From a bacterium (GTDB lineage: Bacteria; Armatimonadota; Fimbriimonadia; Fimbriimonadales; Fimbriimonadaceae), in NCBI GenBank assembly GCA_027483535.1, contig JAIXUN010000001.1:1-64000 (forward strand): a stretch of DNA of 64,000 nt, in the 5' to 3' direction. The translations under genes were made by a program, and so were the position numbers. Of the stretch, positions 43,832 through 46,718 are shown in pieces; the first letter of the stretch is position 1; each line of letters begins with the position of its first letter. The notes under the pieces are model-generated. The model was not told the origin of the DNA, ran no database searches, and saw only the letters and a program-made list of their open reading frames with translations.

Positions 43832-44425
43832 TTAAGCGACGTGGTCCATACCGATCATCCGGTGCCAACGAGCGCTTTCAATTCGACCGATTTCGCTCAC
43901 CTGCACGCCAATTCGGTAACGGGTGATGTCCTTAGGATCAGGTCGGCAGTAGCGGATTTCTCCCGACCCGCGAATCTGCCCGAAGGAACTGTCGATGTTG
44001 AAATCGCACTTTGCGCCTCTTTCAACTTGGTTGTAGGAATATCCTCCGATTCCAGACTTCGAGACATCTCCAACCACGAACTCAACTTCCATCCCGTCGA
44101 TATAGAGGACTCCAACAACGCCCTCCACGCAATACCGAACTTCTTCGGTCGGTGGGCTGAAGTGCATGGGACCAGCAATATGGAAAACGTGCTCCTCTCC
44201 GTGGACACCGAATAAGGTCGCTGTGAATCCGGCCGCGCAGTCGGGCCCGTTCACGGTGAAATGGAAGGACGTGCCGGGTTCCAACTTGGTGTCTTCCACC
44301 AATCTCAAGAGCACTTCTCGCTCGTGGAAGCTGGTTACCCAGCCAGAAAAGAATTTCATGTCCCCAAGGCGCTGCATTCTGCAGCGGACGTTGTGGAACA
44401 TATCGGGGCGGAATTGGGAGATCAT
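43832..44425 (-). CDS. PilZ-domain protein 1 (RxxxE variant)
   Basis: 197 residues: an N-terminal YcgR-like or unknown beta domain (to about 90) and a C-terminal PilZ domain. The DxSxxG motif DVSKSG begins at D120. The Arg motif, 18 residues before it, reads R97-YCV-E101, so the second Arg of RxxxR is Glu. Binding of c-di-GMP is therefore doubtful. GAGGA lies 8 bases before the ATG. 69 bases after PilZ-2, probably the same transcript. Confidence 0.8.
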   Translation of the reverse strand: MISQFRPDMFHNVRCRMQRLGDMKFFSGWVTSFHEREVLLRLVEDTKLEPGTSFHFTVNGPDCAAGFTATLFGVHGEEHVFHIAGPMHFSPPTEEVRYCVEGVVGVLYIDGMEVEFVVGDVSKSGIGGYSYNQVERGAKCDFNIDSSFGQIRGSGEIRYCRPDPKDITRYRIGVQVSEIGRIESARWHRMIGMDHVA

Positions 44426-44494: not shown

Positions 44495-45085
44495 CTAGGC
44501 AACGGAGCGGATGTATTGATTCCAAAGGGCCGTTGCCACACGTCCCATCGGGCCAATTTCGCATCCAATTCGAAACATCGAAGGGTCGGGTTCGTACCGT
44601 CGGCACGTCTTCACCTCAAGATCCAGTTGCACCAAGCCGGTGTTCACCGAAGCTTCGAAGGCGGTTTTTGACCCTCGCTCCATTTCGAAGGGAGCGATGA
44701 ACGCCACTCCAGACTTCGATACGTCGACGATGTTAACGATCGTGGAGCCGCCGCCATCTTTCACGCATCCGGTGAGGGTTTCGGTAAGGATTCGGCAAGA
44801 AGCATCCGATTGTCGGGTCGTTATCTCGCTCGAGACAACCAGTTCGAACTCGTTTTCCTGAATGGCGTTCGAGAACCCGATGAAACTGGCGATGTACCCG
44901 TCGCCTTCCACCTCGCAGTGGAAGAACTGCCCCTGCTTGAGCACCCGGTGGCCCACAAGCTTGCCGTGAAGCACGTTGATATGGGCGTCTTGAATCCAAG
45001 CCGAGAACAGCGCGGCATCGTTCAGGTCCTGCATCCTCATTCGCTTGTGAGAAAGGATGAACAGATCGGTAATCAACTCCGCCAT
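44495..45085 (-). CDS. PilZ-domain protein 2 (RxxxE variant)
   Basis: 196 residues, same layout as its neighbours. DxSxxG is DVSKSG from D121; the Arg motif is R98-ILT-E102 at the same 18-residue spacing, again lacking the second Arg. It is preceded by a folded leader of about 180 bases and a sigma-28-like promoter. Ribosome site GAAGAG close to the ATG. Likely a motility or surface-behaviour effector. Confidence 0.8.
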   Translation of the reverse strand: MAELITDLFILSHKRMRMQDLNDAALFSAWIQDAHINVLHGKLVGHRVLKQGQFFHCEVEGDGYIASFIGFSNAIQENEFELVVSSEITTRQSDASCRILTETLTGCVKDGGGSTIVNIVDVSKSGVAFIAPFEMERGSKTAFEASVNTGLVQLDLEVKTCRRYEPDPSMFRIGCEIGPMGRVATALWNQYIRSVA

Positions 45086-45269: not shown

Positions 45270-45342
45270 TTATCGGGCAGCCAAGCTCGGCTCTTTAGGG
45301 CTAGATAAACAAAAGGCAGATTGGAGTTGAAAAATGATAAAC
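45270..45342 (-). promoter_or_regulatory. PilZ-2 promoter module: paired GTTTATC boxes plus sigma-28-like promoter
   Basis: On the minus strand: GTTTATC at 45336-45342, a second at 45304-45310 (32 bp apart), then CTAAAG (45293-45298), 15 bases, CCCGATAA (45270-45277). The last two fit SigD/FliA promoters (TAAA-N14-16-GCCGATAA). Confidence 0.6.
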
Positions 45343-45344
45343 AC

Positions 45345-45950
45345 TCAGCGTTCCATCAGGAGAACACGTTTCCATCTTGCTTGGCTGATTCGATCCATGC
45401 CCACGATCTGGATCCCAATTCGATGGGTGTCCTCATCAAAACGGACCCTTCGACAGTTCATCACTTTGCCTAAAATGTCCACCGATCCAAAAGAGGTATC
45501 GAGGGATATCTGAACCGTACTTCCCTTTTCGAGCGGGCAGAAGAAGTTGAACCCCAAGCCGAATTCAGACCCGTCGCAGATGTCAATCGCGTGTTGACCG
45601 GAGTCGTTGATCACCTTTCCAACGACATCACGAAGAAGCATTCTCCCCGTCGACCGACTCTCGCGAACGGTGACCCCAGAGGTCAGGGTGATCCGCGCTA
45701 GAGGATGCTGCAAGTCGGCCACAAGACCGATGAAACTCTGAATCTCTGAACCGATTTCACCTTCGACATACAGGAACTCCCCCGGCTTGAGCATTCGCTT
45801 CGTAGTCAGCTCAATGTGGAGTTCTCGTTCAAAGGAATCTTCGCAAACTCCGTGAAAGAAGGCCGCGTTCGATAGGCTCTGCATCGAAACTCGGCGACCG
45901 CGAAAGGCAATCACGGAATCTAATGTTGCGAGGATGGATTGGGTAGGCAT
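45345..45950 (-). CDS. PilZ-domain protein 3 (complete RxxxR)
   Basis: 201 residues. The PilZ motif is intact here: R103-MLL-R107 followed after 18 residues by D126-GSEFG (DxSxxG). It is the copy most likely to bind c-di-GMP. The N-terminal domain matches the other two. Divergent from the GbsR-like regulator and driven by its own copy of the GTTTATC/sigma-28-like module. Confidence 0.85.
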   Translation of the reverse strand: MPTQSILATLDSVIAFRGRRVSMQSLSNAAFFHGVCEDSFERELHIELTTKRMLKPGEFLYVEGEIGSEIQSFIGLVADLQHPLARITLTSGVTVRESRSTGRMLLRDVVGKVINDSGQHAIDICDGSEFGLGFNFFCPLEKGSTVQISLDTSFGSVDILGKVMNCRRVRFDEDTHRIGIQIVGMDRISQARWKRVLLMER

Positions 45951-45994
45951 AAGTTGGCGAGCCCCGTCCGGACGGATGAGGGCTGCCTAAAGAG

Positions 45995-46067
45995 ATATCG
46001 GCACGGTCTGGAGAATCCCCTAGTCCCAGATAAACATTACGTTCTTTCAAGTTCAAAATTGATAAAC
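45995..46067 (-). promoter_or_regulatory. PilZ-3 promoter module: paired GTTTATC boxes plus sigma-28-like promoter
   Basis: On the minus strand: GTTTATC at 46061-46067 and 46029-46035 (32 bp apart), CTAGGG (46018-46023), 15 bases, GCCGATAT (45995-46002), which matches the SigD -10 exactly. The layout is base-for-base the same as upstream of PilZ-2. Confidence 0.65.
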
Positions 46068-46169
46068 ACAGAGATCTGCCCCGGGCGGGAGCCTCAGCCT
46101 GTTGCGTCTACTGGGCTAACTTTCAAAAAATTCGATCATTTCAAAAGTTGCGAGAGGTTAAATGGAGAT

Positions 46170-46718
46170 ATGAATCCAGCAACCGACCCTAGGACTCATC
46201 TTGAGAAGGCGCAAGATTTGTTTGTTCTCGAGTGGGGTCGGATGAGCAGTTCCTGGGGCATCAACCGAACCATGGCCCAGATTCACGCGCTTCTCTTTGT
46301 CACGGGTCGCCCGCTTGAAGTGAATGAGATCATGGATCGCCTCCAGATAAGCCGGGGGAACGCCAGCATGAACCTGCGCGAACTCATGGACTGGGGAATC
46401 GTCCGTCGCTTCCGCCAACCGGGTGATCGAAAAGACACCTACGTGAGCGAAACGGACCCGTATCAAATGTTCCTCCGGGTTGTCCGAGAAAGGAAGCGCC
46501 GTGAAATTGACCCCACATCCGATGCGATTCGGGAAGTGATCGGGAAACTGCCAGAGAGCGACCCGAATCCGGACACCCAAAACCTCCGGCGACGACTCAT
46601 TGCCTTGCTAGAAATCTTCGATCTCATCGACGCGGCGTACGGACAAGTTTTTGGAGCCGAAGTGTCGCTTGAGGAGTTGAAAGAACTGGTCAACTCAACC
46701 ACGACCATCCAGTTGTAA
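46170..46718 (+). CDS. GbsR/MarR-type transcriptional regulator
   Basis: 182 residues from ATG 46170; the open frame begins far upstream but that part covers the PilZ-3 promoter. Winged helix (about 30-95) with MAQIHALLFVTGRPLEVNEIM, RLQISRGNASMNLRELMDWGIV and FRQPGDRKDTY, as in the GbsR branch of MarR proteins. The C-terminal helices form the dimer. Divergent from PilZ-3, so it may control that promoter. Confidence 0.85.
   Translation: MNPATDPRTHLEKAQDLFVLEWGRMSSSWGINRTMAQIHALLFVTGRPLEVNEIMDRLQISRGNASMNLRELMDWGIVRRFRQPGDRKDTYVSETDPYQMFLRVVRERKRREIDPTSDAIREVIGKLPESDPNPDTQNLRRRLIALLEIFDLIDAAYGQVFGAEVSLEELKELVNSTTTIQL

Follow-up and report, generated by a model that had tools for sequence, protein, structure and literature searches.

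Known PilZ-sigma factor couplings and the PilZ cluster of the window

In Escherichia coli, the ycgR gene is under the control of FliA (PMC8669469), and in Pseudomonas, transcription of flgZ is at least partly FliA-dependent (PMC6093933, PMC3913639). Promoters of the sigma-28 type, which conform to the consensus TAAAGTTT-n11-GCCGATAA, can also be assisted by an activator, as at the E. coli aer promoter, where CRP, centred at -49.5, acts as the activator (PMC2859248). In Streptomyces and Rubrobacter, the RsiG-WhiG system is a single circuit that links a FliA/WhiG-class sigma factor and TAAA/GCCGATAA promoters to c-di-GMP (PMC8325347), and MrkH of Klebsiella is a PilZ-domain protein that functions as a transcription activator of fimbrial genes (PMC5055493). 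FliA-dependent YcgR and FlgZ and activator-assisted sigma-28 promoters are already known; Armatimonadota would be a new phylum for such wiring.

The window analysed here (64,000 nucleotides) is the start of contig 2 in an Armatimonadota genome that totals 3.77 Mb. It contains three PilZ genes arranged in tandem on the minus strand, divergent from the gene for a GbsR-like regulator and lon (Table 1). Comparison with the described systems reveals both likenesses and differences. As with E. coli ycgR, a YcgR-type PilZ gene encoding a protein of the same fold class appears to be placed under a flagellar sigma factor, but here this occurs in a different phylum, in a tandem, multi-copy PilZ cluster with a GTTTATC pair, and the identity to YcgR is about 13% in a structural alignment. 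The Pseudomonas FlgZ protein PP4397 is likewise a YcgR-like PilZ protein and is among the best fold matches; however, flgZ lies within the flgMN operon, whereas the predicted PilZ promoters of the window stand alone beside the ferredoxin, GbsR-like and lon genes. The locus resembles E. coli aer and trg, which combine sigma-28 with CRP, in the predicted type of promoter and in a putative activator bound upstream near -50, although there it is a single CRP dyad at -49.5 and here the boxes form a pair of direct repeats, at about -44 and -76. With the RsiG-WhiG system, the shared features are a FliA/WhiG-class sigma factor, predicted TAAA/GCCGATAA-type promoters and, probably, c-di-GMP, but in that system c-di-GMP works through an anti-sigma factor.

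Taken together, we consider it reasonably probable that PilZ-2, probably as a PilZ-2-PilZ-1 unit, and PilZ-3 are late flagellar genes under the control of a FliA/WhiG sigma-28 factor, and that the box pair binds an activator. RNA polymerase carrying the FliA/WhiG-type factor would read both promoters, so that the brake would be made only while the flagellar programme runs. The two direct GTTTATC boxes of each promoter would most likely bind a putative regulator, probably an activator that contacts the alpha subunit of RNA polymerase or sigma region 4; such an activator would add a second input and would compensate for the poor -35 element of PilZ-3. The computed evidence comprises the motif, its geometry, the genome-specific sigma-28 regulon, the fold and the joint occurrence with flagella, from which activity of the promoters, dependence on the sigma factor, protein binding at the boxes and a braking role are inferred. 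This arrangement would extend the coupling between a PilZ brake and the flagellar sigma factor, known in E. coli and Pseudomonas, to a phylum that has received little study and in which the gene content (PilZ with flagella) is conserved and the wiring seems to have been rebuilt at the species level. The box pair, in turn, points to a second regulator of sigma-28 promoters.

Table 1. Genes, predicted promoter elements and repeats of the PilZ locus, in positions of the window
Feature	Position	Strand	Description
PilZ-1	43832..44425	-	197 aa; Pfam
PilZ-2	44495..45085	-	196 aa; Pfam
-10-like CCCGATAA, PilZ-2	45270..45277	-	predicted start about 45263; 5' leader about 178 nt
-35-like CTAAAG, PilZ-2	45293..45298	-	
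inner GTTTATC box, PilZ-2 module	45304..45310	-	centre about -44
conserved 20-nt segment, copy 1, GTGTTTATCATTTTTCAACT	45325..45344	-	18/20 identical to copy 2
outer GTTTATC box, PilZ-2 module	45336..45342	-	centre about -76; 2 nt beyond the PilZ-3 stop codon
PilZ-3	45345..45950	-	201 aa; two-domain, YcgR/FlgZ-like; Pfam PilZ 24.9 bits
-10-like GCCGATAT, PilZ-3	45995..46002	-	predicted start about 45988; leader about 38 nt
-35-like CTAGGG, PilZ-3	46018..46023	-	off consensus
inner GTTTATC box, PilZ-3 module	46029..46035	-	centre about -44
conserved 20-nt segment, copy 2, GTGTTTATCAATTTTGAACT	46050..46069	-	18/20 identical to copy 1
outer GTTTATC box, PilZ-3 module	46061..46067	-	centre about -76
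imperfect dyad AACTTT..AAAGTT	46118..46149		at the GbsR-like gene's own promoter, next to the start codon
GbsR-like/MarR-type regulator gene	46170..46718	+	divergent from the PilZ cluster

The Pfam PilZ domain is matched by all 17 PilZ sequences. A Foldseek search with the AlphaFold2 model of PilZ-3 (pLDDT 90.1, pTM 0.68) yielded VCA0042, MrkH, PP4397/FlgZ, MotI/DgrA and YcgR as the best full-length matches, and in the model the protein has the expected architecture, with a YcgR-like N-terminal barrel and a C-terminal PilZ domain. Given that MrkH is the second-best match, a PilZ protein might itself bind the boxes in the manner of MrkH and thus regulate its own synthesis in response to c-di-GMP. 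The fold likeness is equal, however, for YcgR, FlgZ and MotI, all of which act on the motor, and the box through which MrkH regulates transcription is described as palindromic, whereas the GTTTATC boxes are direct repeats; such autoregulation appears highly improbable. As YcgR/FlgZ/MotI-like proteins, the PilZ proteins of the window are likely to brake or tune flagellar rotation.

The preliminary description of the locus treated these proteins as c-di-GMP receptors, a view that is borne out in part. The fold is of the YcgR/FlgZ/MotI kind and the DxSxxG motif is kept in all three proteins of the window, but the full RxxxR motif is found in PilZ-3 only (RSTGR, together with DGSEFG). PilZ-1 and PilZ-2 retain only the second R of RxxxR in addition to DxSxxG; in PilZ-2, the first R is replaced by D and the other motif reads DVSKSG. 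The genome contains 15 GGDEF matches, so c-di-GMP is probably present in the host, and PilZ-3, judging from its motifs, is a likely receptor.

Sigma-28-type sites before the PilZ genes and in the host genome

The -10-like octamers of PilZ-2 and PilZ-3 each match the consensus GCCGATAA in 7 of the 8 positions. The -35 tetramer TAAA is present for PilZ-2 and is replaced by TAGG for PilZ-3, and the spacing to the octamer is n16, with n15 as the reference. A weight matrix whose training set excluded PilZ-2 and PilZ-3 was evaluated against random 250-bp windows and gave p=0.0003 for the whole PilZ-2 site and p=0.011 for that of PilZ-3 taken alone. PilZ-1 follows PilZ-2 in the same direction after a gap of 69 nt; it has no sigma-28-like site of its own upstream by the same matrix (p=0.43) and is therefore probably read from the PilZ-2 promoter.

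The host genome contains what appears to be a distinct sigma-28 regulon. The strict pattern TAAAN{15,17}CCGATA has 12 matches in the genome compared with 3 in the control. Strict CTAAA..CCGATA sites precede flgL-fliW, fliK-flgD, flgE, a PilZ gene at C1:1.458 Mb, PilZ-2 and a zf-HC2 gene, and one further match sits within a gene; one flagellin gene has a variant site, CTAAGG..GCCGATG. The site on contig 1 (C1:1457737-1457764), which precedes the other PilZ gene, is a near-perfect sigma-28-type sequence, CTAAAG-N15-GCCGATAG, and lacks GTTTATC boxes; it also scores p=0.0003, but is part of the training set of the matrix. A FliA/WhiG sigma factor is encoded at C1:2195568 (229.2 bits against a cut-off of 189.6), along with an FlhA match of 802.7 bits and four flagellin-domain proteins. 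The degenerate pattern CTARR..CCGATR, in contrast to the strict one, is not enriched genome-wide (40 matches versus 46 in the control); it was dropped as a genome-wide predictor, and the CTAGGG element of PilZ-3 by itself is accordingly of little weight.

From these comparisons, the assignment of the PilZ-2 promoter to the sigma-28 type is convincing, and that of the PilZ-3 promoter is moderate, deriving mainly from the geometry that copies that of PilZ-2. The earlier sigma-28 reading of both promoters is thus upheld for PilZ-2, given that the strict motif is also found before flgL, fliK, flgE and another PilZ gene, and holds in a weaker form for PilZ-3.

The sigma-28-like elements would be incidental if the PilZ genes were read from a promoter of another type, either a vegetative one or one recognized by the sigma factor-GGDEF fusion discussed below. 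Such a possibility is compatible with the PilZ genes of the congeners, which lack sigma-28 sites and in three cases carry TTACTAGG, and with the co-occurrence of the fusion with flagellin and PilZ. However, no sigma-70-like promoter was found on the minus strand upstream of PilZ-2 or PilZ-3, and the strict motif precedes flagellar genes of the same genome far above chance, so that we consider a different promoter type improbable and retain the sigma-28 assignment.

The long predicted leader of PilZ-2 was also searched for a c-di-GMP riboswitch or another structured RNA, and this candidate was rejected because the best Rfam match had an E value of 2.7 and the folding was not unusual (z -0.59). 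At C3:26045-26071, a strict sigma-28-type site is located before the zf-HC2 gene, which is followed by a weakly FecR_C-like gene; the zf-HC2 gene is an unexpected member of a flagellar-type regulon.

The GTTTATC box pair and its candidate binders

Upstream of both PilZ-2 and PilZ-3, we found the module GTTTATC-N25-GTTTATC-N5-CTARRG-N15-SCCGATAW, 73 bases long and with equal spacing in the two copies (45342-45270 and 46067-45995, respectively, minus strand). All elements named in the preliminary description were recovered in place, including the boxes 32 bp apart (start to start) in both modules and the outer segment with 18 of 20 bases common to the two copies. The distance from the inner box to CTARRG had been given as 7-8 bases, but it is actually 5 nt in both copies, so that the geometry from the outer box to the -10 element is identical. 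Over the two modules, a repeat search identified a best ungapped direct repeat of 49 nt with 71% identity, the copies being 725 bp apart. The positions of the box centres and their separation by 32 bp, that is, three helical turns, are compatible with binding of an activator.

The box pair is far more frequent than expected by chance. The genome-wide scan suggested in the preliminary description, for which we used the pattern GTTTATCN{24,26}GTTTATC, returned 3 matches in 3.77 Mb, two of which are the PilZ-2 and PilZ-3 modules, against an expectation of 0.02-0.05 derived from how often GTTTATC occurs in the rest of the genome; the reversed-pattern control gave no match in the whole genome. Of 4000 Markov-simulated promoter pairs, not one had a 7-mer pair in common with the spacing preserved. 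We also inspected 28 other CTARR..CCGATR sites of the genome, and none is preceded by TTTATC at a distance of up to 90 nt.

The third GTTTATC-N25-GTTTATC pair (C1:2412671-2412709) lies, in opposite orientation, in the gap that separates a gspF/pilC-type gene from a pseudopilin gene. One of its GATAAAC sequences resembles the -10 element of a sigma-28-like site (TAAG..TCCGATAAAC) and the other overlaps a stop codon; we take this pair to be probably a coincidence.

Two other ways of reading the boxes were discarded upon inspection by eye. Promoters of the SigB/SigF type have the elements GTTTAA and GGGTAT; the boxes do not qualify as -35 elements of this type because neither copy has a GGGTAT-like hexamer 12-14 nt downstream. 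Read on the other strand, as GATAAAC, they could resemble the -10 element of a sigma-28 promoter facing the opposite way, but there is no TAAA at the right distance.

Given that PilZ-2 and PilZ-3 are paralogous, the two copies of the module are probably related by descent. The box pair could accordingly be a functionless relic of the tandem duplication, in which case the sigma-28 promoter would be the sole working element, if it works at all. The proteins are tandem paralogues, the pair is missing from the 19 congeners and from the other sigma-28 promoters, and the stretch between the boxes also keeps 13 of 24 identities, all of which would fit such an origin. However, the two proteins have diverged to 29% identity, so that unconstrained promoter DNA should be near random, whereas the box-containing segments of the two modules are identical in 18/20 and 9/9 positions, compared with 16/39 in the downstream and 22/60 in the upstream flanks. 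The conservation of the boxes amid sequence that has drifted suggests that they are under constraint, although a later duplication of the promoter only, or gene conversion, may be behind their likeness. On balance, it seems rather unlikely that the boxes are a relic, and we favour a functional pair that binds an activator.

As for the protein that binds the boxes, the divergently encoded GbsR-like regulator had been put forward initially as the binder and, hence, as a controller of the PilZ genes. Its gene is adjacent to and divergent from the PilZ genes in many PilZ-bearing congeners, and the regulator belongs to the MarR-type winged-helix class. Nevertheless, the regulator is encoded in all 20 genomes of the genus, with 67-83% identity, including the 9 that lack PilZ and flagellin, whereas the boxes are absent from the promoters of the relatives. 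The intergenic regions of the congeners at this gene contain TTGAAAGTT-type elements adjoining the regulator gene and not the GTTTATC pair, and the boxes are direct repeats whereas dyads are usual for MarR-type dimers. In the window, a similar imperfect dyad at the promoter of the regulator gene is likely to be its autoregulatory operator. Thus, the GbsR-like regulator probably does not bind the boxes, and its control of the PilZ genes through them strikes us as very unlikely; the activator proposed here would probably be another protein.

Distribution in the genus and a sigma factor-GGDEF fusion

We compared 20 genomes of the genus, namely, the host genome and 19 congeners. Relatives of PilZ-3 and flagellin are present in the same 11 genomes and both are missing from the other 9; this exact co-occurrence (11/11 flagellin-positive and 0/9 flagellin-negative genomes) bears out the link between the PilZ proteins and the flagellum drawn in the preliminary description. 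The ferredoxin-PilZ-GbsR-like-Lon gene order is also widely kept. The promoter module is a different matter. That description had named lack of conservation of the boxes in relatives as counting against it, and the pair is indeed absent from all 19 congeners. The PilZ proteins of the congeners are only 20-33% identical to PilZ-3, so that promoter turnover is to be expected; no closer relative of PilZ-3 was found in the genome-contig collection searched. The first PilZ genes of the congeners show no sigma-28 site (weight matrix p 0.23-0.57), and in most congeners the counts of the strict sigma-28 motif are not above control. The motif is found there, for instance, before an flgB-like gene and before a small gene that reads like flgM, an assignment that Pfam does not confirm. 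Several congeners that lack flagellin still encode the stand-alone FliA/WhiG factor, which must have a non-flagellar role there, perhaps in type IV pili by analogy with Rubrobacter (PMC8325347).

A further sigma factor of the host is fused to a GGDEF domain. The gene (C1:2076238-2077512, minus strand) encodes a 424 aa protein in which sigma-70 regions 2, 3 and 4 come first and the GGDEF domain occupies 271-418; the sigma part is closest to SigB/SigF/SigG, with a score of 183.8 bits that is below the cut-off of 234. The fusion is found in exactly the 11 of the 20 genomes of the genus that have flagellin and PilZ. The active site of its GGDEF domain is lost (GQTGF in the host genome), whereas every one of the 11 fusions of the genus has an unchanged RRLD where the inhibitory I-site, which binds c-di-GMP, is normally located, and R-x-(L/V)-D is present in nearly all further fusion loci for which the frame was read. 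We identified about 45 near-full-length relatives, 51-72% identical, which come almost entirely from records named Armatimonadetes, Fimbriimonas or Chthonomonas; the few remaining matches are distant or belong to a contig labelled Methanoregulaceae. In the loci read, the gene is directly downstream of a gene of the T2SSF (PilC/GspF) type (by Pfam in three of these). The AlphaFold2 model (pLDDT 75.6, pTM 0.38) bears out the two domains, though not the way in which they are placed relative to each other. In a literature search, which is not proof of absence, we found no description of a sigma-GGDEF fusion.

The phyletic pattern of the fusion and its invariant RxxD motif allow a hypothesis in which the protein senses c-di-GMP and controls motility. 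We tentatively suggest, while regarding it as unlikely, that the fusion sets the motility programme, that is, flagellin and possibly the PilZ genes of the genus, and that the sigma-28/GTTTATC module described above adds a second, species-specific layer; no motif supporting a link between the fusion and the module was found. If the fusion binds c-di-GMP, it would couple the second messenger to the choice of promoter within one protein.

Flagellin genes in the genus mostly lack a sigma-28-like site, indicating that sigma-28 accounts for only part of the flagellar regulon, and many of them have a different, strongly conserved element, TTTTACTAGG. It is probably a binding site for a further flagellar regulator or sigma factor. 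The element TTACTAGG, found before flagellin genes, also occurs before the PilZ genes of three congeners. In the genus as a whole, TTTTACTAGG, often inside the dyad CCnnGTAAnnTTACnnGG, precedes 11 of 29 flagellin genes, with none expected, and is mostly located about 120-170 nt before the flagellin start codons.
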